Below are positions 20,399-58,427 of a stretch of DNA of 64,000 nt, in pieces (within the stretch, counting starts at the first letter, position 1; each line of letters begins with the position of its first letter). Below the pieces are notes generated by a model. The model was not told where the DNA came from and made no database searches. It worked only from the letters and a program-made list of their open reading frames with translations. The stretch is from Mycobacterium kiyosense (GTDB lineage: Bacteria > Actinomycetota > Actinomycetes > Mycobacteriales > Mycobacteriaceae): positions 2,108,001 through 2,172,000 of the forward strand of contig AP025179.1 in NCBI GenBank assembly GCA_021654635.1, read 5' to 3'. The translations under genes were made by a program, and so were the position numbers.

Positions 20399-21776
<1,378 letters not shown>

Positions 21777-32072: not shown

Positions 32073-32530
32073 GCGGATTTCACCCGGCAGGTGACATGGG
32101 CGTCCTGGTGGGTATCGGACTGTTCGTCGCGCACGACGTCGTTCACCCTTATTCGGCACCCGATCTGACCGCCACGAACCTGTGCCGAGATGCTGCCGGA
32201 AACGACGGTCAGCGTCGTCGTCTCGGTGTGCGACCAGGGCAGCGTATTCAGGTCAAGCCGGTGCGGGTGGCTTTCGACGTCGACATAGACGAGCATTCCG
32301 CCGTCGCCGACGTTGCCGAACAACTCGTAGGTCATTTCCTTGCGGGTGGTCTGCTCCGGCGCTTGCTGCCCCAGGACGGTGATGACCGGAGGGGGAGCGG
32401 AGAATTCGTGCACCTTCCACATGCACAGCGCCCCGACGCCGATCGCGACGACGGCGACCAACGGCATCCAGGCTCGCGCCAACAAGGTCCTGCCGGTCGG
32501 TCGACTACTCACCCGATTCTCCATCCGCAC
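32069..32530 (-). CDS. MmpS accessory protein
   Basis: A 153-residue MmpS-family protein: a short cytoplasmic N-terminus, one membrane span (about 20-43), then a beta-rich periplasmic domain with the family's YELFGNVGDGGMLVYVD and CRIRVNDVVRDE segments. It is the cognate partner of the MmpL encoded immediately downstream and is needed with it for siderophore export in M. tuberculosis. GTG 32530 abuts the preceding stop; starts at 32524 or 32512 are also possible. Confidence 0.9.
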   Translation of the reverse strand: MRMENRVSSRPTGRTLLARAWMPLVAVVAIGVGALCMWKVHEFSAPPPVITVLGQQAPEQTTRKEMTYELFGNVGDGGMLVYVDVESHPHRLDLNTLPWSHTETTTLTVVSGSISAQVRGGQIGCRIRVNDVVRDEQSDTHQDAHVTCRVKSA

Positions 32531-33095: not shown

Positions 33096-34733
33096 TCAGC
33101 CCACGGTGCGGATGATCGCCTTCTTGTCGACCTTGCCGATCGCGGTGGTGGGCAGCGCCGGTAGCGCGGCCAGCTGGTCGATTCGTACGTGCGAAGCGAC
33201 GCCGCGCTGCTCGAGGTGGGCGTTGAGCTCCGACTTCGTCACCGGAGCGCCTGCGAAAACAACTGCGGCGCAGATTTTTTCACCGAGAGCCGGGTCGGGC
33301 AGCGGCACCGCCGCGACCGACCAGACGGCCGGGTGGCTGAGCAGGTGCTCTTCGAGGTCCAGCGCCGAAATGGTCTCACCGGCGCGGCAGATTACGTCTT
33401 TGACCCGCCCGGTGACCACCAGGTTGCCGTCGGCGCGGAGCCGAACCAGGTCGCCGCTGCGGTAGAAGCCGTCCGGGTCGAAGGAACGTTCGTTGTCTCG
33501 CCCGGCACGGAAGTAGCCGTTGATGGTGTACGGGCCGCGCACCAACAGTTCGCCTTCGGCGCCGGCGGCCACGGGCGCTCCGTCGGCATCGACGATGCGC
33601 AGTTCGTCGGCAGGGCTCAACGGCCGGCCCTGGGTGCGCTCGAGCGTTTCGGGCGGGTCGTCGAGGCGGGTGAAGTTGAGCAGTCCCTCGGCCATCCCGA
33701 ACACCTGCTGCAGGCCCGCGGTCAGCCTCGCGCGCACTTCGGCGGCGTCCTCGGGTTCCAGCTTGGAACCGCCGACCTGCAACAGCCGCAACGTTTGTGG
33801 TGTGACGGGTTCCCAGTCGCAGGCCTGCGCCCAGAGTCTGGCCAGTGCCGGCACCAGCGCGGTGACGGTGACGCCGTGCCGGTCGATGGTGGCGAACGCG
33901 GCTTCGGGGCTGGGGTCGTCGGCGAAAACGATTGTGGCGCCGGCGCTTAGCGCGCCGAGGAGGCCGGGGCAGGCCAACGGAAAGTTGTGTGCCGCCGGTA
34001 GCGCGACCAGATAGACGTCGTCGTGGGTGAGCCGGCAGAGTGCCGCGCTGGCGGTGGCGTTGTACACGTAGTCGTGGTGGGTGCGTGGGATCAGTTTCGG
34101 GGTGCCGGTGGTGCCGCCGGACACCAGCAGCAGCGCCGGGGAGCCAGGGTCGGGGACGACCTGCGGAACGTCCCCGTCCGGCAGCGTCGCCCAGGCCAGG
34201 AACGGGCCGGGATGCCCGTCGACCACGACGTGCCGCAGCGACGGCTGGGTGGCGACGAGCGTCTGGGCCATCGGTCGGTAGTCGAACCCGCCCACGGTGT
34301 CGGCGACGATCAGCGCTACCGCGTCGCTGACCTCCGCGAAATGACTCAGCTCGGCCAGCCGGTGTCCCGGCAGGCACATCACCGGGATGGCGCCGGCGCG
34401 CAGCACTCCGAACAGCGCCTCGGCGAACCGGCATGAATTGGGTAGCGCGAGCAGCACCCGGTCGCCGGGTTCGATGCCCAGCGCCGCCAGGCCGGCCGCC
34501 GCACGGTCGGCGAGCCGGTCCAGCTCAGCGTAGGTATGGCGGTGGTGCGCATCGACGACGGCGGGGTGGTGCGGCCAGGTCTCCGCGGCCTGGGTGAGCA
34601 GGTCGTCCACCGTCCGGTCGGTCCAATAGCCGGCGGCCCGGTAGGCGGCGGCCCGCTCGGGCGGAAACGGGACGAAGCCGTCCAGAGCGGGGCTTTCAGA
34701 CGGGTGGGACGGGCAGGTAGAACGTGGCGGCAC
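33096..34733 (-). CDS. mbtA: Salicyl-AMP ligase MbtA
   Basis: A 545-residue stand-alone adenylation enzyme that activates salicylate and loads it on the aryl carrier domain of MbtB. The adenylation motif SGGTTGTPK (about residue 205), the GMAEGLLNFT region and the C-terminal catalytic Lys in TTAIGKVDKKAI are present. The sequence is very close to M. tuberculosis MbtA. GTG 34733 is chosen from GAGGAG eight bases before it and from the family N-terminus (GFVPFP follows); the open frame upstream is only GC-rich read-through. Shares a promoter region and IdeR box with mbtG. Confidence 0.94.
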   Translation of the reverse strand: MPPRSTCPSHPSESPALDGFVPFPPERAAAYRAAGYWTDRTVDDLLTQAAETWPHHPAVVDAHHRHTYAELDRLADRAAAGLAALGIEPGDRVLLALPNSCRFAEALFGVLRAGAIPVMCLPGHRLAELSHFAEVSDAVALIVADTVGGFDYRPMAQTLVATQPSLRHVVVDGHPGPFLAWATLPDGDVPQVVPDPGSPALLLVSGGTTGTPKLIPRTHHDYVYNATASAALCRLTHDDVYLVALPAAHNFPLACPGLLGALSAGATIVFADDPSPEAAFATIDRHGVTVTALVPALARLWAQACDWEPVTPQTLRLLQVGGSKLEPEDAAEVRARLTAGLQQVFGMAEGLLNFTRLDDPPETLERTQGRPLSPADELRIVDADGAPVAAGAEGELLVRGPYTINGYFRAGRDNERSFDPDGFYRSGDLVRLRADGNLVVTGRVKDVICRAGETISALDLEEHLLSHPAVWSVAAVPLPDPALGEKICAAVVFAGAPVTKSELNAHLEQRGVASHVRIDQLAALPALPTTAIGKVDKKAIIRTVG

Positions 34734-34792
34734 TCGCGAGCTCCTCGGGGTGAGCGTGTCGGCACTGCGAGCATAGGGTAGCGTACAGAAAG

Positions 34793-34811
34793 TTAGGACA
34801 GCCTGAGCTAA
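34793..34811. promoter_or_regulatory. IdeR-like iron box between mbtA and mbtG
   Basis: TTAGGACAGCCTGAGCTAA matches the IdeR consensus at 14 of 19 positions with intact outer arms TTAGG and CTAA. It sits 60 bp before mbtA and 110 bp before mbtG, placed to repress both divergent units. Confidence 0.78.
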
Positions 34812-34920
34812 TACGGGAGGTGGGGGTCGTGGGCGGCGCGTCATTCGCCGGATCACCGGCGAACGCAGAATGCCACCCGGGCCACCTCGGCCGGAGCGAC
34901 GATCGTGGGGCGGGTGACTG

Positions 34921-36214
34921 GTGAGCCGGACGCTGGCGGTCATCGGCGCGGGCGCCAAGGCGGTCGCGGTGGCGGCAAAAGCCGCGGTGCTGCGCGAGAT
35001 GGGTGTCGAGACGCCTGACGTGGTGGCCATCGAACGCACCGAGGTGGCGGCCAACTGGCTGCCGGGGGGCGGCTGGACCGACGGTCGGCAGCGGCTGGGC
35101 ACCAGCCCGGAGAAAGACGTCGGGTTCCCGTACCGGTCGACGCTGGTGGCCGGGCGCGAGTCCGAGGTCGACGAACAGATGATGCGGTTCAGGCCGGCAG
35201 TCGTATCTGGTTGCCTCCGACCAGTTCGTGGGCTGGGTGGACCGGGGCAGGCCGGCGCCGGCCCACGACACCTGGGCCCGCTACCTGCGGTGGGTCGCCG
35301 AGGTCGCCGGCCTGAAAGTCGTTCAGGGCGAAGCGCGCAAGATCGCCGTCGAGCAATCCCGCTGGGCCGTCCACACATCCGGATCCACCGTCTGCGCTGA
35401 CGCGCTGATGGTCACCGGGCCCGGACAGCCGGAGCGATCGATGCTCTCCGGTGATCCCCGGGTGTTGTCGATAGCGCAGTTCTGGGCCCGCGCCGGGCAG
35501 CACGAGCGCATCGTGGCCGACAGTGTCGCGGTGATCGGCGGCGGCGAGACCGCTGCGTCGATCCTCAACGAGCTGTTCCACCATCGGGTTTCGTCGATCA
35601 CCGCGATCTCGCCGCAGGCGACGCTGTTCACCCGCGGCGAGGGCTTCTTCGAGAACTCGCTGTTCTCCGATCCCGCCGGATGGCGCAGCCTCAGCCACGC
35701 CGAACGCCGCAACTGCATCGCCCGCACCGACCGCGGGGTCTTCTCCGCACGGGTCCAGGAGTCGCTGCTGGCCGACGAGCGGATCACCCACCTGCGTGGC
35801 CGCGTCGCGCGGGTCTTCGACCAGGACAACAAGATCTGGATCACGCTGCGCACCGACAACTGCGGTGAACCGCAGGAGACGCTGCACCGCTACGACCTCG
35901 TCATCGACGGGTCCGGCGCCGACCCGCTGTGGTTTTTGCCGCTGCTGCAACCGGACGCGGTGGGACTGCTGGAGTCGGAGGTCGGTGCGCCGCTGTCCGG
36001 TGAGCGACTCGAAGAGTGCATCGGTCCCGATCTGGCGATCGCCGGTGTCAATCCGAAACTGTTCCTGCCCAACCTGTCCGGCGTCAACGAGGGTCCCGGA
36101 TTTCCCAACCTGAGTTGCCTGGGACTGCTGTCGGACCGGGTGCTCGGCGCCGAGATTCAGCGTGCCGCTGCCACAACCTCGATGGGGAGATCCGGTGAGT
36201 ATCAATCCGTTTGA
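34921..36214 (+). CDS. mbtG: Lysine N6-hydroxylase MbtG (one frameshift)
   Basis: A flavin-dependent N-hydroxylase making the hydroxamate precursor N6-hydroxylysine. The FAD motif [13 protein letters not shown] is at the N-terminus and an NADPH motif IGGGETAAS lies mid-protein. The sequence closely follows M. tuberculosis MbtG to the end ([15 protein letters not shown]). The frame breaks near 35191-35200 in AGGCCGGCAG; removing one C restores the family sequence (Phe-Arg-Arg-Gln-Ser-Tyr). A sequencing error is likelier than a dead gene, since both parts are fully conserved. GTG 34921 is the start; the 3' end overlaps mbtH by 20 bp. Confidence 0.88.
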
Positions 36215-36410
36215 CGACGAAGACGGCACCTTCTACGTGTTGACCAACGACGAGGAACAGCACAGCCTGTGGCCGGAGTCCATCGGCCGGCCGGCCGGCT
36301 GGCGGGTGGTGTTCGGTGCGGACAGCCGCGCCAACTGCCTGGCCTACGTCGAGCAGCACTGGACGGATATGCGGCCCAAGACTCTTCGCGACGCAATGGC
36401 CGCCGACTGA
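36195..36410 (+). CDS. mbtH: MbtH-like NRPS helper protein
   Basis: A 71-residue MbtH protein that binds and stabilises NRPS adenylation domains. It has the invariant [24 protein letters not shown] and the Trp-containing PAGWRVV and [12 protein letters not shown] segments, with the same length as M. tuberculosis MbtH. GTG 36195, inside the 3' end of mbtG, follows GGGGAGA. The mbtG-mbtH pair forms a short transcript that converges on mbtD. Confidence 0.95.
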
Positions 36411-36480: not shown

Positions 36481-39400
36481 TCAGGCGTCCAGCTTGGCCA
36501 GCACGTCGGCGATCGACGCCCCGCCCAGTAGGTCCGCGACATCGAGCTCGTGGTCGAACTCCTTCTTGACGCGACGGCGAAACTCGAGCGCCTGCAACGA
36601 ATCCAGGCCGATCGCCACCATCGGGATGGTGGTGTCGATCGCCTCCACACTGTCCACCCCGATGGCCCCGGCCAGCAGGCTCATCAACCGGTGCGACGCG
36701 CCGGCGGGTGCCTCGACCGCCACGGAAGGGGCAGGTCCGGCCGCGGGTGCGGCCGCGGGTTCGGGCTCGGAAAGCTGCGCCAGCAGCGAGTCGCGGCCAC
36801 AGGTCGCAAGCACCGACCGGGCACGATCCAGGTCGAACGCGGCGACGGCGGCGTTGGTGGCAAGTCTGGTCATCCCGACCGCCAGCGCATCAGCGGGCGC
36901 CATCGGGACAACGCCGAGACCGGACAGCATGGCCAGTCCCGAGTCGTCGAGGTGCACCTTCCAATGCCCCCATTGCACCGACACGCAGTCCAGGCCCTCG
37001 GCCCGAACGTGGTGTGCCAGGGCGTCGAGCATACGGTTGCCGGCGGCGTACAGCGCCAGGCCGCGACCCCCGACGGTGGCCGACACCGACGAGCACAGGA
37101 CCACGCGGCAGTCGTCGGTTCTGGGGAAGCTGCGCAGGATGCGTGCGATTCCCACCACCTTGGCGCTCAGCGCGGCATGCACCTTGTCGGTGGTGATGTC
37201 TTCGAGTTCGACACCCGAATACTCGACCGCGCCATGGATGATCACGTCGGCAGGAGCGTCCCGGTGCCGCTCGGCCAGCTGCGCCACCGAAGCCGGATCG
37301 CTCAGGTCACACCTGGCGACCTCGATGTGAGTCGTTGTGGCGGAACGGATCTGGCGCAGCCGCTCCCCGACGGCGGTGGTCTCGCCGGTTCTGCTGACCA
37401 GCGTGATGCGCTGGGCGCCCTGCTGGGCGAAGTGCCCGCAGAACTCGAGTCCGAGTTTCCCGGTGCCGCCGACGATCAGGACGTGCCCGGGACGCGCGGC
37501 GGCCGTGCCGGCGGCGCATTTCTCGCCCGGCACGACACGCTTGGCGTACAGGCCGCCGTCGCGCAGCGCGAGTTCGGATTCCCCGGCCGTGTGCAGCGCC
37601 TTGAGCACCGGCGCCGCGGTTGCCGCCGATGCGCCGGCCGGCAGGTCGAGGTGGCGGAACCGCACGCCGGGATATTTCGCGCCGATGCTGCGGAATCCCG
37701 CGCTGGCCGCCGCGTGCACGAGGTCCGGCGGCCCGTCGTCGGTGACGACGGCCTCGCCGGCCACCGTCACCAGCCAGCAGTCGGTGACCCCGCCGTGCAC
37801 CCCGGGCCACCACGCGCGCTCGGCGAAGAAAGCGGCGACACGATCCGCCGCGGCGACGGCGTCCAGCTTCGGCGATGCCGGCAGCAGGATGACGTGGGTG
37901 TCCAAATCGTCTTGGGCGGCGGCACTCTCGCTGTCGATCGACCGGGCCGTTGCGCCCAGTTCGGCGGCTGCGGCACACAGTGCCTCAACCAGCTCGGCGC
38001 AGTCTCCGGTGTGATCGATGAGCCCGATGGACCGCGGCCGGGTCAGCGACCGGCGCGTCAGGCGAACCCATTCCTCGGCGAGCAGCCGCGGCTGTGCCGA
38101 CGGCGAAGCCGCGCCAACCTCGGGCACTGCCGGTCGGCTGGTCGGTGTGGCGGTCTTACGCCGCGGTAGTACCTCGTCGTAGGGCAGCCACAGGGTGGTC
38201 TCGTTCATCAGGGTGTTCGGGAAGTCGGGAAGCGGTTCAGCGGCCGGGTGCTCGGAGTCGACGCGCAGGAGATCCCACCGGTAGTTCAGGTCATGAACGG
38301 CCAACTGCGCGAGGTTTGTGGTGAATTCGCGCAGATCGGTCGCGGTCCGGACGGAGGTGCTGACCACCCGGGAAGCCATTTCGTCGCCGCCGCGGGCGGC
38401 GAGGTTCTCGTGGATCGCCAGTTGCAGGGTCGGATGCTCGGCCAGTTCGACGAACGTGTCGACATTCAGTTCGGCGGCGGCCGCGACCGCCTTGTCGAAC
38501 CGCACCGTGTTACGCAGGTTCCAAAACCAGTACTGGTCGACCGGCAGGTCCGGGGTGATCGCGGCGCCGAGAGTGGAACCGAAACAGTCGATCTCGCTGT
38601 CCAGGAACTTGGGATTCGCCAGCTGCCGCTGCGAGGCCGCGCGTACCGTGTCGCCGAGTCCGTTGATCAGGCTGGTGTGCGCCGGATACCGGACACCGAT
38701 GACCCGGGCGAACACACCGCGCTCGGACAGCGCGGCCACGAGGTCCTGCACCGTCTCCCGGTCGCCCGAGATGCCGGTCATATTGGGCGAATTCACCACC
38801 GACAGCTCCGCCCAGCCGGTACAGCGGGCCAACAGCTCTTCGCAGCTGTCCCGGTCGGTCGCCACCACGGCCATCGAGTAGGTCACCCGACTCGATCTCG
38901 CGGGCGGCCAGCGCACGAATACCGATGACGCGCACCGCATCCGCCAACGTGATCAGCCCCGAAACGTAGGCGGCGGCGATCTCGCCCTGGCTGTGTCCGA
39001 CGGTGACCTGCGGGACGACCCCGACCGATCGCCACGCCGCGGCCAGGCCCGCCATCTGCGTGAACAGAGCCGGTTGCACCGTGCCGGCGTCGCTCTCGGC
39101 GGTCAATTGGTCGTCGAGCAGATAGGGCAGCGGCGACTGGCCCGAGTACTCCACGAAAGCTTGCGCACAGCGGTCCGCCTCCGCACGAAAGGCCGGAATC
39201 AGCTCGTAGAACAACCGCCCCATCCCGGGACGCTGACTGCCCTGGCCCGGAAAGACGTAGGCGAGCCGACGGGCCGCCGCCCCCGCGGCGCCCACCACCG
39301 AAGGGTGGTCACGACCCTCGGCGATCGCGCCCAGCGCCGCCAGCAGCTCGTCACGGTCGTTGACCATGGCCAGCGCACGGTGCTTGCGGGCCACCCGGGT

Positions 39401-39571
39401 GCCGAACAGCATCTGCGCGATGGCCGGTGGTGTCACGCTCGGGTGCGATGCCGCGTAGGACAGCACGGCGGCGGCTTCGCCACGCAGCAACTCCGGTGTC
39501 TCCGAGGTCAGCAGGACCGGGATCGAGCCGTCCGGAAGCCGGTAGGTCACGCCGTGGTGGGCAACTGTCAC
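36481..39571 (-). CDS. mbtD: Polyketide synthase MbtD (one frameshift)
   Basis: A modular PKS of about 1029 residues once one base is removed. An acyltransferase domain (FPGQGSQ near residue 105, active-site GHSQGE near 191), a ketoreductase (GGTGKLG near 697) and a C-terminal acyl carrier domain (GLDSLQALEF, Ser near 985) are present. With the MbtC ketosynthase it adds the 3-hydroxy acid unit of mycobactin. The frame breaks at 38881-38882, where one extra C separates GAC and TAC codons. GTG 39571 overlaps the mbtC stop (GTGA), so mbtT-mbtC-mbtD are coupled. Confidence 0.9.
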
Positions 39572-40902
39572 TTCGTCACTTCCCCTGCCGCTGCGGGCAT
39601 TTCGATGATGGCGTGGGCGTTGGCGCCCCCCGCGCCGAACGACGACGTCGCGCCGTAGCGAATCCCGTCCTTGGCCGGCCACGGGTGAACCTTGGTGGCC
39701 AGGCGCAGTCCGACCAGGTCCCAGTCCAGCATCTTGGTCGGGTTGTCGGCGTAGAGGGTCGGCGGAATCTGACCGTGGTGGCCGGCCAGCAGCAGCTTGA
39801 TCAGGCCGAGGATGCCGGACGCGGCCTGCGGGTGGCCGAGGTTGGACTTGATCGAGCCCAGCAGCGCCTGGCTGCCCGCTGCGCCGTAGGTCTTGAACAA
39901 GGCGAGCAGCTCCACCGGGTCGCCGGCCTGGGTTGCGGTGCCGTGCCCCTCGATCATCCCGACATCGGCGGGGTCGATGCCCACCACGTCGAGCGTCTTG
40001 CGCACGACTTGTTCCTGCGCCCGGACCCGGGGGACCAGGATCGGCTTGCCTTTACCGTTGTGATTGGTGCGGATGGCCAGGATGCGCCCGTAGATGTGGT
40101 GGCCCAATTGTTTTGCCCGCGATTCGCGTTCGATGACCACCATGCCCGCGCCTTCGCCCCATACGGTGCCGCTGGCGTCGTCGGAGTAGGCGCGGCAGTG
40201 CCCGTCGTCGGAAAGCGCGTTCAGCCGGGAGAATTCGTAGAAGGCGCCCGGGGAACCCATTACGCACACCCCGCCGGCCAGCGCCCAGTCGCATTCGTCG
40301 AAGGCGACGGCGGTAGCGGCCAGGTGTACCGCGGTCAGCGAGGACGCACAGGCGGTGTCGAGGCTGATGGACGGACCGGTCAGCCCCAGACTGTGCGAAA
40401 TCCTTGCAGCCCCGCCCAATTGGCCCAGGCTGGCGATGCGGTGTCCGGTGAAGGCATCGGCCACCGAGGCGCGCGGCCCGTACTCCATCGGTGACATCCC
40501 GACGAAGCAGCCCACGAATTCGCCGTCCAGCGTCCCGGGGTTGATCCCGGTGTTCTCCAGCGCTTTCCACGCCACGCGCATCGCGACGCGCTGCTGGGGG
40601 TGCATCACCAGTGCTTCGCGGTGGGTGATCCCGAACAATGTGGGGTCGAAAGTGGTTGCGCTGTCCAGGAACCCGCCCGCATCGTGGACCGGGCCCCAGC
40701 CGTCCATCTCCGATACCGAGAACAGCTCGTCCAACGGCCAGCCGCGGTCGCGCGGGAACGGGCCGATCAGTTCCCTGGATTCGGTGAGCGCCTGCCACAG
40801 TGCGGCCGGGGTGTCGATGCCGCCGGGCGCCTCGACGGCCAACCCGGAGATGACGATGTGATCTTCGGTCGACCCGGCTGTCACGGTCCGGCCGTAGGTC
40901 AT
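39568..40902 (-). CDS. mbtC: Ketosynthase MbtC
   Basis: A 444-residue stand-alone beta-ketoacyl synthase, the same length as M. tuberculosis MbtC. The nucleophile Cys is in DTACASS (about residue 184), and the two His are in EGHGTATQAGDPVE and KSNLGHPQAA. It condenses malonyl from MbtD onto the growing chain. ATG 40902 overlaps the thioesterase stop (ATGA). The C-terminal FGAGGANAHAII motif is intact. Confidence 0.94.
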   Translation of the reverse strand: MTYGRTVTAGSTEDHIVISGLAVEAPGGIDTPAALWQALTESRELIGPFPRDRGWPLDELFSVSEMDGWGPVHDAGGFLDSATTFDPTLFGITHREALVMHPQQRVAMRVAWKALENTGINPGTLDGEFVGCFVGMSPMEYGPRASVADAFTGHRIASLGQLGGAARISHSLGLTGPSISLDTACASSLTAVHLAATAVAFDECDWALAGGVCVMGSPGAFYEFSRLNALSDDGHCRAYSDDASGTVWGEGAGMVVIERESRAKQLGHHIYGRILAIRTNHNGKGKPILVPRVRAQEQVVRKTLDVVGIDPADVGMIEGHGTATQAGDPVELLALFKTYGAAGSQALLGSIKSNLGHPQAASGILGLIKLLLAGHHGQIPPTLYADNPTKMLDWDLVGLRLATKVHPWPAKDGIRYGATSSFGAGGANAHAIIEMPAAAGEVTK

Positions 40903-41660
40903 GATCTCGACTCGGACTGCCGCAGTTCGCCGGCCAGCAGCTCGGCGATCGCCTCGGTGTGTTCGTTGAGGAAGAAGTGTCCGCCGTCGAACATCGTCAC
41001 CTCGACGGAGTCGGTGTGCTTGCCCCATCCGTAAAGGTCGCCCAGTGTGACGATCGGATCCTGGTCGCCGCCCAGTGCGTGGATGGGCGCGGAGATCCTG
41101 ACGTCCTCGTCGCACGCGTACGCGTCGCAGGCGCGGTAGTCGGCCTTGATCACCGGCAGTGCCAGTCGCATCAGGTCACGGTTGCCGAAGACGTCGGAGT
41201 TGGTGCCCTCCAGCGCCGCGAGGTGGGTGAGGATCTCCTCGTCGGTTTCGGGGTGCGACGGCTTGTTCGCCGCGTTGCACGGCGCGACCGCGGCCGAGAC
41301 GGTGAGGTGTGCGACGTCGACGCCGTTGGCTTCGGCGATCCGGGCGAACTCGAACGCCACCCAGCCGCCCATGCTGTGCCCGAAGGCCGCGACCGGGACA
41401 CCGCGATTGTGGTCCGAGCGGGCGAACTCCTCGAATGCTCCGGCGGCGATCTCGGGCAGTGAACCCAGCGGTGGTTCGGCGGCCCGGTCCTGGCGTCCGG
41501 GGTACTGGAACACGATGACGTCGAACTTGCTGCTCAGCGCCTTGGAGAAGGCGCGGTAGGCCGATGCGCCGGCGCCGGCGTGGGGGAAGACCAACAGCGT
41601 GGGGCTGCCCGGGGATTCAGGTTTGTGGAACTGCCTGATCCACCCAAGGGTGCGCGGCAT
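40899..41660 (-). CDS. mbtT: Type II thioesterase MbtT
   Basis: A 253-residue alpha/beta-hydrolase thioesterase. The catalytic Ser is in GHSMGG, Asp in GGDQDPIV and His in GGHFFLN. As an editing thioesterase it clears misprimed carrier domains. Here it may also stand in for the TE domain that is missing from the C-terminus of MbtB but present in M. tuberculosis MbtB. First gene of mbtT-mbtC-mbtD, read from the shared IdeR box at 41786. Confidence 0.9.
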   Translation of the reverse strand: MPRTLGWIRQFHKPESPGSPTLLVFPHAGAGASAYRAFSKALSSKFDVIVFQYPGRQDRAAEPPLGSLPEIAAGAFEEFARSDHNRGVPVAAFGHSMGGWVAFEFARIAEANGVDVAHLTVSAAVAPCNAANKPSHPETDEEILTHLAALEGTNSDVFGNRDLMRLALPVIKADYRACDAYACDEDVRISAPIHALGGDQDPIVTLGDLYGWGKHTDSVEVTMFDGGHFFLNEHTEAIAELLAGELRQSESRS

Positions 41661-41785: not shown

Positions 41786-41804
41786 TTAGCGAAGGCTAAC
41801 ATAA
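41786..41804. promoter_or_regulatory. IdeR-like iron box between mbtT and formyltransferase
   Basis: TTAGCGAAGGCTAACATAA matches the IdeR consensus at 15 of 19 positions, including AGGCTAAC. It lies 126 bp before mbtT and 58 bp before the formyltransferase, so iron should co-repress the two longest mbt units. Confidence 0.84.
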
Positions 41805-41861: not shown

Positions 41862-42800
41862 ATGCGCGTCGTGTCGTTCGGCTTCCAGACCTGGGGACAC
41901 AAGACCCTGCAGGCGCTGATCGAGCTCGGGCACGATGTCGTTCTCGCGGTCACCCACCCGGCCAGTGCCGAGTCCTACAAAGCCATCTGGTCGGCCTCGG
42001 TCGAGGAACTCGCCCGCGAACACGGCATTCCGGTCCATGTCACCACCCGTGCCGACGCCGAGACCATCGACGTCGTCAAGCGCGCCGAACCCGACGTCAT
42101 CGTCGTCAACAGCTGGTACAGCTGGATGCCGCCCGAGCTGTACACGCTGCCGCCGCACGGCACCCTGAACCTGCACGATTCGCTGCTCCCCAAGTTCACC
42201 GGGTTCTCCCCGGTGCTGTGGGCGTTGATCAGCGGCGAAACCGAATTCGGGCTGACGGTGCACCGGATGGACGAGGGCCTGGACACCGGAGACATCCTGG
42301 TGCAGCGGTCGTTACCCATCGGCGCGAGCGACACCGGCACCGATTTGGTGGTCAAGGGCATGGAGCTGATCCCGGGCGCGTTGCGGGAGGCGCTGGACGC
42401 GCTGGAGTCCGGCACCGCGCGCTGGCGGCCGCAGCACAAGGCCGAGCGGACCTACTTCCACAAGCGTTCCGAACGTGACAGCCTGATCGACTGGAATTGG
42501 CCGGCCGAAGACCTGGAACGGTTCGTGCGGGCCCTGTCGGACCCCTATCCGCGCCCGTTCACCCATTACCGCGGCGAACGCATCGAAGTGCTGCAGGCCC
42601 GGGTGTCCGAAGCTCGCTACGGTGGAACGCCGGGGCGGGTGATCGTGCAGGAGGGGGGCGGCGCGGTGGTGTCCGGGCCCAGCGCCTATCGCGGCGGCAA
42701 CCACGGGTTGGTGATCACCCTGGTCCGCGACGCCGACGGGGTAGAACGTCGCGGCGACGAGTTCTTCGTGCGCGGCGGCTATCTGACCGACCAAGCGTAG
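41862..42800 (+). CDS. 10-formyl-THF-dependent formyltransferase of the siderophore operon
   Basis: A 312-residue protein of the Fmt/ArnA/FxbA formyltransferase fold. The catalytic Asn-His pair lies in NLHDSLLPKFTG (about residue 102) and the third catalytic Asp in MDEGLDTGDIL. A C-terminal OB-like domain starts near residue 205. ATG 41862 follows a GGGGG ribosome-binding site; a TTG three codons earlier is too close to it. It heads the mbtE-mbtF-mbtB operon behind an IdeR box, so it should be iron-repressed. FxbA of exochelin synthesis formylates a hydroxyornithine; here N6-hydroxylysine from MbtG is the natural candidate. No counterpart lies in the M. tuberculosis mbt-1 cluster. Family firm, substrate inferred. 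Confidence 0.9.
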   Translation: MRVVSFGFQTWGHKTLQALIELGHDVVLAVTHPASAESYKAIWSASVEELAREHGIPVHVTTRADAETIDVVKRAEPDVIVVNSWYSWMPPELYTLPPHGTLNLHDSLLPKFTGFSPVLWALISGETEFGLTVHRMDEGLDTGDILVQRSLPIGASDTGTDLVVKGMELIPGALREALDALESGTARWRPQHKAERTYFHKRSERDSLIDWNWPAEDLERFVRALSDPYPRPFTHYRGERIEVLQARVSEARYGGTPGRVIVQEGGGAVVSGPSAYRGGNHGLVITLVRDADGVERRGDEFFVRGGYLTDQA

Positions 42801-42829: not shown

Positions 42830-45800
42830 ATGGCAGACGATGCCAAGACCCTGCAGGAACGCCGTCGCGAGTTGCTGCGCCGGCGAATCGCCGAAAGCGG
42901 TGTGGCGGCAGGGAAATCGGCCGAGGCGGTCGAGCTTCGAGCGGGGCAACGCTACCGCCTTTCTTCCGGCCAGCGCCGCATGTGGTTCCTGCAGGCCATG
43001 GACGCCGACGACACCACGCTGAACATCTGCGTCGCCTACCGGCTGACCGGACAGCTTGACCCGGCCCGGCTGCGCGACGCCGTCGGTGCGGTGGTGGCAC
43101 GACACGCCGTGTTGCGCACCAACTACGGAGTGGACAGCGAAGGTGAGCCGTACCAGGTCTTTCGGGATCACGTCGAGACACCTTGGCAGGAACACGATTT
43201 CACCGATCTGGACGATCGCGACGATCGCGACCGGCGGGTGGAAGACCTGGCGCGCCGGGAGTTCGGGCGACCGTTCAACCTGGCCGACGACATGCCGCTG
43301 CGGATCACCCTGATCCGGACCCGCCCAGCAGAATTCGTGTTGCTGCTCGTCGTGCACCACATCTGCTGGGACGACGACGCCTGGGCGGTGTTCTTCGCAG
43401 AACTCAGCGCGGCCTACAACTCTCAGCCGCTGGGCGAACCGGCGCCGCAGTTCGTCGCCGTCGAAGTGCTCGACGGCGCAACCGAACCCGGTATGGCCGA
43501 CGTCGGCTACTGGGCCGACAAGCTGCGGCCGGCCCCCGAGCCGCTGGAGTTGCCCGGTGTCCGGGCCGCGCACCCGTCGCGGCGGGCCGAGCGGGTGACC
43601 CGGCCGCTGCCCGAGGGTCTGTTCGGCCGGCTGGAAGAATTCGCCCGCGAACACTCCGCCTCGCCGTTCATGGTGCTGCTGGCCGCCTACGGCGTGTTGA
43701 TCCGGCGTTACACCGGCAGCCCGGACTTCTTGGTGTCGGTACCGGTAACCGACCGGAAAGCCCTGGCCCAGAGGGTGATCGGCTATTTCGGCAACACCCT
43801 GCTGCTGCGCCTGACCGCACGGCCGAACGTCACTTTCGGCGCCTACGTCGACGCGGTACGCGACACCTGCCTGGACGGCTTCGCCCACCAGTCGGTCGGC
43901 ATCGACCGGGTGGTGCGGGAAGCCAACCCCCGAGCGGATGGGCCACGACGGCATGGACCAGCTGGTGCGGCTGGGATTCAGCATGCGCAAGAGTGTGAGC
44001 GGATTCGCACTGGACGGCGTGGCCGTGCAACAGCTGGGGCTGGGCGCGGTGACCGCACACCTGCCCCTGGCCCTGGCCATCGTGCTGGAGCCCGAGGGTG
44101 CCCTGGCCGAGTTCGAATACCAGACCGACGTACTCAGCCCGGCCCTCGTCGAACAGTTGGCGGCGCACTACATCCAGCTGTTGGACAACGCGATCACCGA
44201 GCCCGACCGTCGCCTCACCAGCCTGGACATGTTGGACGCCGATGAGCGCGACGCGGTGCTGGACGCCTCGCACGGCGACCTGGTCCCGACTCCGCCCACC
44301 ACCATGGTCGCGGTGCTCGAAGCGGCGGCCGCCGCCCGCCCGGACGCCACGGCGCTGGTCTGCGACGACGACGAGTTGACCTACGCCGAGCTACACGGCC
44401 GGGCAAATCGCCTGGCGCGCTGGCTGATCGGGCAGGGCATCGGCGCCGAGGACATCGTGGGGCTGCGGCTGAGCACGTCCGTCGAATTCATCGTCGCGAT
44501 GCTGGCCGTGCTCAAAGCCGGCGCGGCCTACCTGCCCATCGACCCGGCCTATCCGGACGAGCGGATCGACTATCTGATCGGCGATGCACGGCCACACCTG
44601 GTGCTCGGGCAACGAGAACTCGCGGACGCCGAACGGGCCGCGGCACAGCTGTCCGACGCTGCGGTCACCGACGCCGACCGCCGAACCGCTTTGCGCCCAG
44701 GGCATTTGGCGTACGTCATCTACACCTCCGGTTCCACCGGTCAGCCCAAGGGCGTCGCGGTGTCGCATCACGCGATCGCCGAGCATGTCCAGGGTTTCGT
44801 GGCGGAGTGGAGCATGACCGCCGAAGACCGGCTGCTGCAGTCGTCTTCGGTGAGCTTCGACGCCTCGCTGCTGGACATCTTCGTCACGCTCTCGCTGGGC
44901 GCGCAACTGGTGGTGCCCAAACCGTCGGACACCGGTGCGTTCAGCGACCTGAGTTACCTTGCCGACCTGATCAGCCGGCACCGCATCACCGTGCTGCACA
45001 TGGTGCCGTCGATGCTGAGCACCCTGCTGCTGTTGCCGCAGGCCGAGGAATGGCGGCAGCTCCGGCACGTACCGGTAGGTGGCGAGGCGCTGGCCGGGGA
45101 GGTGGCCGACAAGTTCGCCGGCTATTTCGACGCGCAACTGCGCAACCACTACGGGCCCACCGAGGCGGTGGTCTGCGCCACGCACATGGTGGTCGACGGG
45201 TCGCACGGGGCACGCGTGGTTCCCATCGGCCTGCCCAACCGCAACGTCTACGCCTACGTGCTCGACGAGGAACTGCAACCGGTGCCCGCCGAGGTGATCG
45301 GGGAGCTCTACCTCGGCGGCGCACAGCTCGCCCGCTGCTATCTGGGTCGTCCCGGACTGACCGCGGCACGCTTCGTCGCCGACCCGTTCAATCCCGGCGA
45401 ACGGCTCTACCGCACCGGAGATCTGGTCCGCCGCAACATCTCCGGTCAGCTGGAGTTCGTCGGCCGCGCCGACGAGCAGGTCAAGGTCCGCGGCTACCGC
45501 ATCGAACTCGGCGAGGTCGAATCGGTGATCGCGACCCATCCCGCGGTCCGGCACTGCCTGGTGGTGACCGAGGACACCGAGGCCGGGCCGATGCTCGCCG
45601 CCTACCTGGTCCCGGCCACCGGCGACGGGGTTTCCGGTGAGCTGAACCTGGACGAGGTGCGCACCCACGCGGCGGCGACGCTGCCCGAATACATGGTGCC
45701 CACCGCGTTCGCGGTCATCCCGGAGATTCCGCTGACGGTCAGCGGCAAGCTGGACAAGCGGGCGCTGCCCGCGCCGACACCGGTCGCGGTGCGCAGTTAC

Positions 45801-47849
45801 CGGCAGCCGGCCACCGAGACCGAACGACGGATGTGCGCGATCTTCGCGCGGCTGTTCGGCTGGGAGAAGGTCGGCGCGGAGGACTCGTTCTTCGGCCTCG
45901 GCGGCCACTCGCTGCTGGCTGCCCGGCTGGTGGCAGCGATCCGCGCCGAGTTCGGCGTGGAACTGACGGTGCGCGCCGTGTTCGACACCCCCACCCCGGC
46001 CGGGCTTGCGGCGCGACTGGAGCAGTCGAGCGCCGACAGCGACGCGATGATCGCCCGGCGCAACGGTTCTGGCTCGGCCGGCCCGGCCCGTCCAGAGTTG
46101 ACGGCAGTGCGCCCGGAACGTCCGCCGCTGTCCTACTCGCAGCTGGCGATGTGGTTCCAGCAGAAGATGAGGGGCGCCAACGACGTCTTCAACATGGCGC
46201 TGACACTTCGGGTGAACGGCCCGCTGGACATCGCGGCGCTCGGTGCCGCCCTCAACGACGTCATCGCCCGACACGAAGTGCTGCGCACCAACTTCGTCGA
46301 ACACGAAGGTGTTCCGTATCAGCACATCCACCCGGCCCGGCAGGTGCCACTCGAGGTCACCGACGTCAGCGCCGACGGCGTGGACCGGGCGATCGCCGAG
46401 TTGCGCCGGCACGTCTTCGCCCTGGACTCCGAGTCCCTGGTGCGGCCCACCCTGCTGCGGATCGACCCGGCTTCGCACGTGCTGCTGCTGCTCGTCCACC
46501 ACACCGTCACCGACCACTCGTCGATGGGCATCATCTTCGAAGACCTGCTCACCGCGTACCGGGCGCGGCTGGACGGGCACCCGCCGCAGTGGCGGACCGT
46601 GGCCGCCCAGTTCGCCGAACACGCGCTGTGGCAACGCAATACCTTCGAAGCCGACACCGACTGGGGGCAAGCTGCGCTGCGGCACTGGCACTCCGCCGTC
46701 GCGGGGATGCCCTACGAGATCCCGACGGTCGCCGACCACACCCGGCCGCCGGTCCTCGGAAAGCGCGGCGAGCTGGTCGATTTCACGGTGTCAGCGGCTC
46801 GGCGGGCGGCATTGGTCCGGCTCGCCGAAGAAGTCGGGGCCAGCGAGTTCATGGTGTACCAGGCCGCGCTCGCGGTCCTGCTGCACAAGCTCGGCGGCGG
46901 CACCGACATCGGCATCGGAAGCCCGGTCGCGGCCCGCGTCGATCTGGCCACCACCAACATGGTGGGTCCGTGCGCCAACGTGATGGTGCTACGCAACGAC
47001 CTGTCCGGCGATCCGAGCCTGCGGGACACCGTTTCCCGCAGCCGCGACACCGTGCTCGACGCGCTGGCGCATCAGGAACTGCCCATCGAGCGGCTGGTCG
47101 AGGAGCTCAACCCGCCGCGCTCCCCGTCCCGCAACCACCCGTTGTTCCAGCATTCGATCCACTTCCGCGGCGAGGACTGGGCACTGCTGCCGCGGGACCT
47201 GACCCCTGACGGGGCGACGACGGTGGTGCCGGTCCCGATGGACTTCGAAATCTCACTGCTGGACCTCAACGTCTCACTGGACGTGATGCCGGATGCCGAG
47301 CTGAACGTGCGCGTGGTTGCCAACGCGGATCTGTTTGAACCGCAAACGGTTTCGTCGATCGGTACGGCTTTCTGCACCGCGCTCGAGTTGTTCGCGACCC
47401 AACCGGACCGGCCGCTGTCGCAGGTGCAGTTGCTGCCGGCGGAGGTGATGGAGCAGTTGCTCGCCCCGGCCACCCCCGCGGTGATCAGCCGCTCGGAGCT
47501 CGGCGAAGCTTCGGCGGAGACCGAGCAGACCCTGATCGCCCTGCTGGAGGAGTTGCTCGACATCACCGGCGTGGACCGCGAGGACAACTTCTTCGCGATC
47601 GGCGGCGACAGCATCATCTCGGTGCAGCTCGCGGCCCGCGCCAACGCGCTGGGACTGGCGCTGACGCCGGCCATGGTGTTCGAGTACCTGACGCTTGCGG
47701 AGCTGGCCGCGGCTGTCGATGCTGCCGGCGAGCAGCCCACGGCCACATCGGATCCCGAGGCGCAACCACAGTCCGCGCCGATGAGCGCGTCGGGTCTGGA
47801 CGCGGACGCGCTGGCGGCGCTGTCCGCGGCATGGCAGAGCCGCTCGTGA
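42830..47849 (+). CDS. mbtE: Nonribosomal peptide synthetase MbtE (one frameshift)
   Basis: About 1672 residues after one correction. Domain order: condensation (HHICWDD near residue 175), adenylation (YTSGSTGQPKG near 630), carrier (GGHSLLAA near 1023), a second condensation domain (HHTVTDH near 1222) and a second carrier (GGDSIIS near 1590). It should activate the internal hydroxylysine, in acylated or formylated form. The frame breaks in a run of five C at 43927-43931; with four C the reading is Asn-Pro-Glu-Arg-Met, as expected. ATG 42830 follows CTAGGAG. The length is close to M. tuberculosis MbtE (1682, as I recall). Confidence 0.92.
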
Positions 47850-47856
47850 GGCACCG

Positions 47857-50800
47857 GTGACCACGGCACCACCGCAGATCGAGGACGTCCTGGCGCTCAG
47901 CCCCCTGCAGGAGGGGCTGTTCGCGCTGTACCGGATGGCCGAGGACAGCGTCGACCTCTACACCATGCAACTGCGGGTGGACATCGACGGACCGGTCGAC
48001 TTGGAACTGCTGCGGCCGCAGCGCCGCGGTGATGCTGGCGCGGCACCCCAACCTGCGCGCCGCCTTCTGGGATCAGGATGTGCCCAAACCGGTGCAGATC
48101 GTGCCCTCGCACGCCGAGCTGCCCTGGCACGAACGCACCGGAACGCCGGCCGAATTCGACGCGATCGCCCGCTCGGAACGACGCCGGCCGTTCGACCTGA
48201 GTCGCGGTCCGGCATTGCGCGTGGTGCTGATCTCGGTGCCGGGCCAGACGCGCCGCCGGATGGTCTTCACCGCGCACCACATCCTGATGGACGGCTGGGC
48301 GCTGGCGATCTTCTTCACCGAGATGCTGGCCGTATACCGGGCCGGCGGATCCGCGGACGCACTGCCCGCCCCACGTCCGTACCGCGACTACATCGCCTGG
48401 CTGGCCACCCAGGACGCCACGGCCGCACTGGACAGGTGGACGCGGTACCTGAGCGCGGTGTCCGCCCCGCTGATGGTGGCCGACGGCACCGTCGACATCC
48501 GGGCCGCGGTGCCGGAGCAGACGAAATCGCTGCTGTCGGCCACCGACACCGCCCGGCTGCGCGGCTGGGCCGGCCGCAACGGCCTGACGCTGAACACCGC
48601 GGTGCTGTTCGCCTGGGCGGTGCTGCTCAGCAGGCTCACCGACCGGCGCGATCTGGTATTCGGCACCGTCGTGTCCGGGCGCCCCGAACACCTGACCGGC
48701 GTGGAAAGCATGGTCGGGCTGTTCATCAACACCGTGCCGGTGGTGCACCAGATCAGTGCCGGCACCCCGATCGTGGAGCAGTGCGCGCGGCTGCAACGCG
48801 AGTCGTCGGCCATGCGCGAGATCGGTTACCTCAGCCTGTCGGAACTGCAGCGGGCACACGGCCGCGGAGCCCTGTTCGACAGTCTGTTCGTATTCGAGAA
48901 CGCACCGATCGAGGACTCGATCCGCACGGTGACCACGCCCGACGGCGCCAGCTTCAGCCCAGTCGAAATGGACAGCCTCACCCACTATCCGCTGACCGTG
49001 GTCTCCCACCTCAGCGGCGACGAACTGGTGGTGGTGGTGGAGGCGATTGCGGCTGCGCTGCCGCATCTTCCGGCCGCCGACATCTGCCGGCGACTGGTCC
49101 AGGTGCTGCTGCAACTGCCCGACATCGGCGACGAAACCCCGGAAGCGCTCGACGTGCTCACCGCGGCCGAGCACGCCGCCTTCGCCCACGTCGCCGCCGC
49201 GGCGCCGGCCCGGCCCGTTGACACCGTGTGGGACGTCTTCGCGCGGCAAGCCACCGCCACACCGGATGCCGTCGCACTGACCACCGGCGCCGGCGAGCGC
49301 CACACCTACGCTGAATTGCACGGCCAGGCAACGCGATTGGCGTCAGAGCTGGCCGAGCGGGGCGTCGGACCCGAGACGGTGGTGGCGTTGCTGCTGCCGC
49401 GCTCGTCGCGGTCCGTCGTCGCCATCCTCGGTGTGCTGGCGGCCGGGGGCGCCTATCTGCCGGTGGACATCACGCTGCCCGAGGTTCGGATCGAATCAAT
49501 CCTCCGCCAGGCCGAGCCGATCCTGGCGATCGCCGACGCCGAAAATGCCGGCCTCGCCGGATCCGCGCTGCCAACCCTGCTACTCGACGATCCGGCTGTG
49601 GCCAAACGGATTTCGCGGCGCCCCGACATTGCCCCAGCGGTCCGTCGCCACCCCGGCCAGCGGGCTTACGTCATCTTCACCTCCGGCTCCACCGGCGAAC
49701 CCAAAGGTGTGATCGGCACCCATGCGGCGATCCTCGGCTACTTCGCCGACCACCGCGACCGCGTCTACCGCCCGGCCGTCGCGCGCCTGGGCCGCCCGCT
49801 GCGCATCGCCCACGCCTGGTCGTTGAGCTTCGACGCCTCCTGGCAGCCGATGGTCGGCCTGCTCGACGGGCATGCGGTGCACCTGTTCGACGCCGAGGAG
49901 ATGCGGGACGCCGATCGGCTGGTCAAGGGGATGGCCCAACACCGGTTGGACATGATCGACACGACACCGTCGATGTTCACTCAACTCAGCGCAGCGGGGC
50001 TGCTCGATCACGCGCTGGCGGTGCTGGCGCTCGGTGGCGAGGCGATCGACAGCTCCCAGTGGAGCTACCTGCGCGGGTTGTCCAACGCCGTCTACAACTG
50101 CTACGGCCCAACCGAAATGACCGTGGAGGCGGTGGTGGCCGCGGTCACCGACTACCCGACACCGACCATCGGCACGCCCAATGCCGGCACCTTCGGCTAC
50201 GTGCTGGATTCGGCATTGCGGCAGGTGCCCGACGGTGTGGTGGGTGAGCTGTATCTGTCGGGTGTGCAGCTGGCTCGCGGCTACATCGGCCGTGCCGGGT
50301 TGACCGCCACCCGCTTCGTCGCCGATCCGTTCCGGCCGGGCGAGCGCATGTACCGCACCGGTGATCTGGTGCGGCGCTTGCCGCACGGCGGCTACGCCTA
50401 CCTGGGGCGCGGTGACACCCAGGTGAAGATCCGCGGCTACCGGGTGGAGATCGGCGAGATCGAGGCCGCGTTGCGCGGCCTGCCCGAGGTGCACGACGCG
50501 GCCGTCTCGGTGTTGCGCCGGGACAGCGGCGCCACCCTGGTGGGTTTCGTCGTCTGGCAAGGCGACGACGGTGATGCGGGCCGGTTGCGCGCCGCGCTGG
50601 CCGATCGGTTGCCGTCGTACATGGTTCCGGCGCGGATCGTGGCGCTGCCGCGGCTGCCGGTGAATCCCAACGGCAAACTCGACGGCCACGCCCTGGACGC
50701 CATCGCCGAGGACACGCTGTCGCGGCCGGCCGGGGACTCCTCGGCGACGGCTGCCGGGACGGACACCGAAAAGGCGTTGGGTGAATTGTTCGCCGAACAG

Positions 50801-52396
50801 TTCAACGGCCTGGTGCCGCATCTGGACGACGACTTCTTCGCGTTCGGGCTGGACAGCATCGTCGCGATCTCGTTGGTGCACAAGGCGAGACGACGCGGTT
50901 TGACGCTGAGTCCGCGCATGGTGTTCTCCGCTCCCACCATTCGCGAGCTCGCCGCCGTCATCGACTCGGTGGGGGACACCGGGATGTCGGCGCACACCGC
51001 CGAATACGGCGAGGTGCCGCCGTTGCCGATGGTGTCCTGGCTCTACGAGCACGGCAACTTCCGGCGGTTTACCCACACTGTGTTGCTGCGACTGCCCGAC
51101 GGTATCGACCGCGCGGCGCTGCAGTCGCTGCTGCAGTCGATGCTCGACGGCCACGACACGTTGCGGTCGATTCTGACCGACACCTCGGCGGGTCCCCGGC
51201 TGGTCACCCGGGAGCCGGGTGTGCTCAGCGCGGCCGACATCCTCACTCAGGTCGAGGTCGGGCGCAGCAGCGACGAATTGGTCGCTGCGATAGCCGATTC
51301 CGCGCCACGGGTGATGGACCAGATGGACCCCTACGCGGGCTCGATGGTGCGGGCGGTCTGGTTCTCCGGCGCTGAGCAAGGAGACGCGCTGCTGCTGGCC
51401 GCCCACCACCTGACAGTGGATGTGGTGTCGTGGCACATCATCGTCGGCGACCTTGCCGAGGCGTGGCGGTGTGTGCAAGCCGGCACGGCGCCGAAGGTGT
51501 TGCCGGAGTTCACCTCCTACCGGCGCTGGTGTGAGCTGATGTGGCGCCGCGCCGCCGAACCCGAGGTTCAGGCGCAGCGCGACTACTGGATGGACCAGGT
51601 GTGCAGGCCCGACGCCGCGCTCGGCGCCCGCCATCCCGACCCGACCCGCGACAGCTGGTCCACGCTGCAGGTCACCCAGGTGGTGAGCCCGGCCGACGTC
51701 ACCGCGCAGGTGCTGCACACGCTGCGTCGCGACGAGGGCGTGCGCGAATTCCTTTTGGCTGCAACGACGATGACGATAGCCAGCTGGCGGCGGGCCAGGG
51801 GCCAGGACCCCGCGGTGGGTACCCTGGTCGCGCTGGAAGGCCACGGTCGCGCGGATGCCGTACTGGACACCGACACAACCAACACCGTGGGTTGGTTCAC
51901 CACCGCCTTCCCGGTCCGGTTCGGTGTCGGCGAAGCGGCGGTCGACGTCGAACGGGCCGAGCGGGATCCGGCAGCCGCGGTCGGCCTGGTCGACTCGGTG
52001 GTCGAGCACCTGGGCGAGGTGCCCACCGACGGCATGGATTACGGCCTGCTGCACTATGTCGACCGGCTACCCGAATTGCAGGAGGCCGCCGAACCGCAGA
52101 TCCAGTTCAGCTACCTGGGCCGGCTGGATCTCGGCGGCAGCACCGACCAGCCGTGGTCGCTACTGACCGGTCCCTACCTCGAGGCGCTGCCAAACGCCCC
52201 GGAACCGGATCTGCCGCTGCGGTTCGCGCTGAACATCAGTGCGTTCGTAGCTAAAACGCCGGAAGGTACCCAACTGATCAGCAACTGGCGCTGGAGTGAC
52301 GTACTGTTCACGCCCGCCGACATCGAGCGTCTGACCGAATTCTGGCTGCGCGCAATCGCCGCTCTGGCAGCCGGCCTGCAGAGAAGTCTGGCCTGA
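47857..52396 (+). CDS. mbtF: Nonribosomal peptide synthetase MbtF (one frameshift)
   Basis: About 1512 residues after one correction. Domain order: condensation (HHILMDG near residue 140), adenylation (FTSGSTGEPKG near 607), carrier (FGLDSIVA near 998), then a C-terminal epimerisation-type domain (HHLTVDVVSW near 1181, EGHGR near 1326, TVGWFTTAFP, and QFSYLGRLD at the end). It adds the terminal, cyclised hydroxylysine. The frame breaks near 48016-48017 (CGGCCGCAG); removing one C restores Arg-Arg-Ser-Ala-Ala-Val-Met. GTG 47857 lies seven bases after the mbtE stop. Confidence 0.92.
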
Positions 52397-52426
52397 CCGC
52401 ACGGTCGAGGCCGAGAGGGGATGAGC

Positions 52427-57358: not shown

Positions 57359-58427
<1,069 letters not shown>

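Follow-up and report, generated by a model that had tools for sequence, protein, structure and literature searches.

The window analysed here, a stretch of 64,000 nucleotides of the Mycobacterium kiyosense genome (contig AP025179.1), contains a siderophore cluster whose features are listed in Table 1. It is flanked by a hemW-like gene and by hrcA/dnaJ, the interval where mbt-1 lies in M. tuberculosis. The mbtE-, mbtF- and mbtB-like genes all follow the formyltransferase gene on the same strand, so the operon described in the original prediction stands. We infer that the condensation domain of the mbtB-like protein is of the cyclising kind, and the MmpL family protein is a possible siderophore exporter.

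Table 1. Features of the siderophore cluster, with positions in the window.
Feature	Position	Strand	Basis
mbtI/nbtS-like salicylate synthase	20424..21776	+	TIGR03494 612.9 bits, cut-off 325.15; box 20399-20417, 5 mismatches
MmpL family transporter	29217..32159	-	TIGR00833 929.6 bits, cut-off 874.7; PF03176
MmpS-like membrane protein	32069..32530	-	PF05423 104.5 bits
mbtA-like aryl-AMP ligase	33096..34796	-	TIGR02275 564.7 bits, below cut-off 723.55; beside mbtG in relatives
IdeR-like box between mbtA and mbtG	34793..34811	.	5 mismatches to the IdeR consensus
mbtG-like lysine N6-hydroxylase, two frames	34909..36214	+	PF13434 25.3 bits, cut-off 21.3, second piece
MbtH-like protein	36162..36410	+	PF03621 91.7 bits
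nbtC-type PKS (AT-KR-ACP), two frames	36481..39550	-	NF037941 1095.7 bits, profile 221-1026, cut-off 1150
nbtB-like ketosynthase	39568..40905	-	PF00109/PF02801
Cluster thioesterase	40899..41660	-	PF00975 154.6 bits
IdeR-like box of operon	41786..41804	.	15/19 to the IdeR consensus
Probable TerH-like siderophore N-formyltransferase, one frame	41862..42800	+	PF00551+PF02911; 82% to N. terpenica enzyme; tree
mbtE-like NRPS (C-A-T-C-T), two frames	42830..47849	+	Adenylation code DALHPGHVC
mbtF-like NRPS (C-A-T-C), two frames, split near start	47857..52396	+	Domain matches
mbtB-like NRPS (T-C-A-T)	52421..55945	+	PF00668, PF00501, two PF00550 stretches

The gene at the head of the operon is an ORF of 312 aa whose product matched both PF00551 (111.9 bits) and PF02911 (52.2 bits) in a profile search. 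The motifs quoted in the original prediction are present, and its call of a formyltransferase was confirmed. N103, H105 and D141 are invariant across 20 aligned relatives, and presumably play the role of the Asn-His-Asp triad of this fold. The fold with these residues is found here next to nocobactin NRPS/PKS genes and a lysine hydroxylase. The original prediction stated that M. tuberculosis has no such gene in its mbt-1 cluster; across the genus, 210 of the 296 genomes sampled have no homologue at E ≤ 1e-60. Two other identities were rejected. The score against the tRNA formyltransferase model TIGR00460 is 162.2 bits for a cut-off of 201.5, and a separate Fmt-like match exists at 3646744-3647319 (161.1 bits over 192 positions, itself below the cut-off). 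For amino-sugar formyltransferases, the scores are also below cut-off (ArnA, 172.8 of 777 bits; PRK06988, 193.2 of 316 bits), and no sugar genes were found among the scanned neighbours. The product is probably a TerH-type siderophore N-formyltransferase of a nocobactin-type cluster.

Among the best 80 named loci, the Nocardia enzymes are 79-85% identical to the window formyltransferase, and their loci mostly adjoin mbtG-like and nocobactin NRPS genes. TerH itself has been proposed as a candidate N-formyltransferase (PMC7413640, available text). Orthologues were identified in two species known to produce formylated compounds. N. gamkensis NBRC 108242, a producer according to the available portions of PMC7413640 and PMC8978914, has one of 84% identity (locus L131) with mbtG-, mbtE- and mbtF-like genes. 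The N. altamirensis orthologue (80%, L180) is accompanied by the same three genes plus nbtC, KS and TE; this genome record was matched to the producer of PMC8978914 at the species level. Amamistatin B was isolated from N. altamirensis, and the formyl group was seen on a lysine residue by NMR (PMC8978914, available text). Having the gene is no assurance of the product. Indeed, N. takedensis NBRC 100417 carries the formyltransferase (L167), but for this strain the available text of PMC7413640 gives no nocobactin as detected, and reports mycobactin-type signals instead.

A tree was built from 85 formyltransferases. A branch with 100/96 support separates its mycobacterial enzymes from those of the Nocardia side, which also take in Aldersonia and a Mycobacteriaceae MAG; L064 and L065 fall outside both sister groups, in the outgroup tier. 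The mycobacterial enzymes of mbt loci are not a single clade: those found beside a different NRPS group together (support 90/88), and two changes are required to account for the stand-alone ones. Two M. smegmatis formyltransferases, which we take to be FxbA, are 56% identical to the window enzyme and 83% to that of L065; they are not rows of the tree. FxbA, one of the two enzyme types named in the original prediction, is therefore not the nearest relative, the Nocardia enzymes being closer, and orthology with FxbA was rejected. A role like that of FxbA, in which the enzyme would supply formylated hydroxyornithine to an exochelin-type peptide encoded at another locus of the genome, could be argued from the 13 of the 80 named loci where the formyltransferase stands beside a different NRPS, and from the places where it stands alone with an IdeR-like box. 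We consider it very unlikely, given that the window gene heads the mbtE-F-B operon, that the M. smegmatis enzymes are so distant and lie near another clade, and that none of the other NRPS-like matches in the genome was tied to the formyltransferase gene.

Formyltransferases of 78-84% identity lie beside a different NRPS at L054 and L127 (M. ostraviense, G066) and at 12 other named loci; an MbtH-like gene was found in 6 of the 13. The NRPS of L054 has two modules and a terminal reductase domain, and the formyltransferase there has an IdeR-like box. This type of locus may direct a further formyl siderophore under iron regulation. The stand-alone genes with an IdeR-like box at L059 (G008) and L062 (G123) are located among shikimate and elongation-factor-P genes, and no siderophore gene was matched nearby.

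In the usual depiction of mycobactins, the hydroxylysine bears a long chain. The original prediction had placed the formyl hydroxamate on a mycobactin core, and this part was not supported, the PKS genes being of the nocobactin type. In a profile search, the ORF at 36481-38940(-) scored 1095.7 bits against the NbtC model and 469.8 against the MbtD model, on which basis an MbtD-type PKS was rejected; the NbtC score falls short of the cut-off of 1150, with about 220 N-terminal residues lying in another frame. The same preference was seen in pairwise comparisons with Nocardia loci (36 of the 44 Nocardia-side loci were used, 10 of which held KS, NbtC and TE). Identities to these 10 loci, against those to 6 MbtD-type mycobacterial loci, are 59-68% versus 50-53% for the ketosynthase, 45-56% versus 30-33% for NbtC, and 58-62% versus 37-42% for the thioesterase. 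Homologues in several mycobacteria are named "nocobactin polyketide synthase NbtC" in some sources and "MbtD" in others. From these sequence comparisons, the neighbouring PKS pair is nocobactin-type, not mycobactin-type.

The type of PKS bears on the place of the lipid. In the nocobactin-type pathway, the long chain is carried in the beta-hydroxy acid (PMC7413640, available text). Similarly, the mycobactins of M. abscessus and M. marinum are described, in the available text of PMC9505556, as having no long N-acyl chain; the portion derived from the PKS bears a long alkyl chain, which is argued there to replace the usual tail. Because the PKS is of the NbtB/NbtC type, a long tail is expected in the polyketide part; by analogy, the fatty tail is most likely located elsewhere in the molecule, not lost. 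The "more polar and secreted" product of the original prediction is thus disfavoured. Such a product would be a mycobactin with 3-hydroxybutyrate, in which formyl replaces the long acyl chain, leaving it tail-less. Although the formyltransferase and the lack of an mbtK match are what one would expect of it, this is quite unlikely with an NbtB/NbtC pair in place of MbtC/MbtD, and in M. abscessus and M. marinum the forms that lack the long N-acyl chain have a long alkyl chain on their polyketide portion (PMC9505556, available text).

The acyltransferase was searched for in the whole genome (98.5% complete, one contig). PF13523 gave zero matches, while it is matched at E ≤ 0.001 in 281 of the 296 genus genomes and above the cut-off in 255. 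We assume NbtH to be a member of this family; the formyltransferase stands without any NbtH-type acyltransferase. The best hit with an MbtK query has an E value of 0.656, which supports the original prediction in so far as it lets formyl take the place of the acyl chain added by MbtK; its other option was formyl besides that chain. For mbtL, mbtM and mbtN, named there alongside mbtK, the search covered the surroundings of irtAB and, for MbtN, the whole genome. The irtAB importer genes are present (irtA split over frames), with neighbours that, judged by eye, run from lprD to murI, and no match to mbtL, mbtM, mbtN or mbtK was found beside them, the mbtM and mbtN queries having also missed both control loci (n = 2; mbtK found twice, mbtL once, mbtM and mbtN never). 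Genome-wide, the MbtN query found at best generic enzymes of 26% identity.

We then surveyed the slot between the thioesterase and mbtE across the genus. The NbtC cut-off was passed by 58 of the 296 genomes; adding the window and a second copy from G036 brought the number of clusters to 60. The slot holds the formyltransferase only in 13 clusters, a PF13523 acyltransferase only in 25, both in 5 and neither in 12, while in the remaining 5 the PKS has no adjacent mbtE; G012 was classed from its PF13523 position, and G007 and G005 across contig ends. Among genomes with formyl-only clusters, 10 of 13 lack a PF13523 match better than 1e-8, versus 37 of the 283 others (Fisher p = 8e-7, uncorrected for kinship, with the list of 47 such genomes compiled by eye). 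The three formyl-only genomes that keep a strong PF13523 match are G148, G151 and G204. Nocardia is split likewise between an N-acetyltransferase (NbtH) and an N-formyltransferase, in agreement with MS of the acetyl and formyl products (PMC7413640, available text). The 5 clusters with both enzymes and the 12 with neither mean that the cap cannot always be read from what the slot contains.

Clusters with both enzymes are L055, L056, L057, L058 and L115 (four of M. asiaticum type and one of M. deserti, names presumed). Those with neither are L090-L094, L096-L099, L101, L103 and L110; a formyltransferase homologue is found elsewhere in 9 of these 12 genomes, and their cap enzyme may act from another genomic place. 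In addition, four plasmids of M. avium and M. intracellulare (NZ_AP012556.1, NZ_CP076859.1, NZ_CP076857.1 and NZ_CP023152.1) carry a 79% identical formyltransferase together with an NbtC-type PKS, at a distance of about 44-46 kb. The occurrence of NbtC on plasmids of M. avium has been mentioned in print (PMC11877719, available text).

The adenylation pocket of MbtE varies with the content of the slot. The code of the window enzyme, with positions anchored on motifs, is DALHPGHVC, and its third position, which we take to be residue 239 of GrsA, is Leu. Leu is found at this position in 13/13 formyl-only mycobacterial clusters and in 34/34 scored Nocardia-side clusters (44 loci in the group, 36 given, 34 yielding an adenylation domain); the Nocardia rows were found via the formyltransferase and are therefore silent on Leu in acetyl-type Nocardia. 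All 47 scored clusters that have the formyltransferase alone retain it. The 25 acyl-only clusters have Ala (12), Leu (4), Pro (3), Met (3), Ser (1), Phe (1) or Ile (1), the clusters with neither enzyme Ala (12/12), those with both Met (4) or Leu (1), and the MbtD-type clusters (n = 6) Gly (5) or Ala (1). The difference in Leu between formyl-only and acyl-only clusters has p = 4e-7, uncorrected for kinship. On the MbtE tree, a quick tree without bootstrap, formyl and acyl clusters interleave, and the formyl label needs at fewest 9 changes, of which 3 are forced by starred branches.

This pattern fits a formyltransferase that would act before MbtE loads its amino acid. We tentatively propose that the hydroxamate cap may be a module swappable at one slot, with position 239 setting the cap size (Leu for formyl, mostly Ala for acetyl, Gly for long acyl), a proposal that we hold with rather less than even confidence. 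A plain size rule leaves unexplained the 9 of the 25 acyl-only clusters that have a bulky residue at 239. Leu may instead be ancestral and simply kept where formyl is used. Close pairs serve as natural experiments: of M. angelicum and M. szulgai (names presumed), the former has the formyl gene, and the latter has the acyl gene with Leu kept. If the pocket rule holds, siderophore caps would be predictable from sequence.

The cluster is apparently under iron control, judging from the sites upstream of its genes. The IdeR-like box at 41786-41804 matches 15 of the 19 positions of the consensus and ends 57 nt ahead of the formyltransferase ATG; the box of the original prediction is thus retained, with its distance of 58 bp corrected. 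In a scan of the + strand of the window, sites with ≤5 mismatches occurred in 4 of 425 overlapping 300-bp tiles. The same strand has three sites with ≤6 mismatches in 64 kb, all at siderophore genes (20399 before mbtI, 34793 between mbtA and mbtG, and 41786 before the formyltransferase). Among the mycobacterial loci, which were the ones scanned, a box with ≤6 mismatches precedes the formyltransferase gene by 39-305 nt in 27 of the 29 best relatives, the exceptions being G011 and G270. By comparison, the putative box ahead of Msmeg0011 in M. smegmatis matches at 13/19 and was called similar to the known fxbA site (PMC2170428, available text).

Four genes of the cluster (mbtG, nbtC, mbtE and mbtF) are each interrupted in the window, their coding sequence running over two frames where relatives have one. 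If these breaks were real, no siderophore would be made. That the cluster is dying, its genes no longer working, could be read from these four splits and from that of irtA elsewhere in the genome. We give this only a slender chance. The hrcA gene (57395-58424), which is unrelated to iron, is likewise split in two frames in the window and unbroken in relatives. Elsewhere in the genome, the tRNA fmt gene is probably split as well, its match ending early within a frame of 240 aa. The longer pieces of the split genes still have third-position GC like coding sequence, and in M. vicinigordonae, a near relative, NbtC is 1022 aa long. Because hrcA and probably the tRNA fmt gene are also broken, the frame breaks are likely assembly errors.

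Taken together, our preferred reading, to which we assign a probability of roughly 0.8, is that a TerH-type formyltransferase caps N6-hydroxylysine before MbtE, leading to a formobactin/amamistatin-like mycobactin; the catalytic steps, their order and the structure are all deduced from gene content. Upon iron starvation, IdeR would release the operon from the box. MbtG would hydroxylate the lysine side chain, and the formyltransferase would add formyl from 10-formyl-THF, giving N6-formyl-N6-hydroxylysine for loading by MbtE. NbtB/NbtC would then add the long-chain beta-hydroxy acid, and MbtF the lactam-forming hydroxylysine. The predicted product would have a short hydroxamate cap and a lipid tail in its polyketide part, and would be membrane-seeking. 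Hydroxylation need not come first, since a formylated, non-hydroxylated congener has been isolated (PMC8978914, available text). The formyl hydroxamate itself, the central idea of the original prediction, is supported by orthology, by the lack of an mbtK match and by the slot pattern.

The window and 12 similar loci among the 296 genus genomes predict formyl-capped, nocobactin-like mycobactins. Several of the predicted producers are slow-growing species, such as M. riyadhense, M. simulans, M. persicum and M. angelicum, among others (names presumed). We found no description of a formylated mycobactin in Mycobacterium in the literature searched, which excludes most subscription journals. The type of enzyme and cluster is already known from Nocardia; the MbtE pocket hypothesis is the new part.

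Compared with known systems, the window cluster is closest in its enzyme to the Nocardia formyl nocobactins (terpenibactin, formobactin, brasilibactin and amamistatin), at the 79-85% identity given above for the best 80 named loci. It shares with the TerH systems the either/or relation with an acyltransferase (PMC7413640, available text), but it has the mycobacterial mbt gene order, and the mycobacterial enzymes form their own group in the tree. As in MBT Ab and MBT M, the mycobactins of M. abscessus and M. marinum, a lipid tail is expected in the PKS part (PMC9505556, available text). No mbt-2 locus is reported for M. abscessus in the available text of the same paper, and no mbt-2 match lies beside irtAB in the window genome. 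Unlike MBT Ab and MBT M, which are described as having no acyl group on the internal hydroxylysine in a paper where the word "formyl" is absent (PMC9505556), the window cluster has a formyltransferase. The FxbA protein of M. smegmatis exochelin belongs to the same family and has an IdeR box upstream (PMC2170428, available text), but differs in its 56% identity, its position near another clade and its NRPS partner. Finally, the window has equivalents of MbtA, B, E, F, G, H and I and an IdeR-like box in common with the M. tuberculosis mycobactin system (mbt-1 and mbt-2), from which it differs in having no MbtK match and an NbtC-type instead of an MbtD-type PKS.
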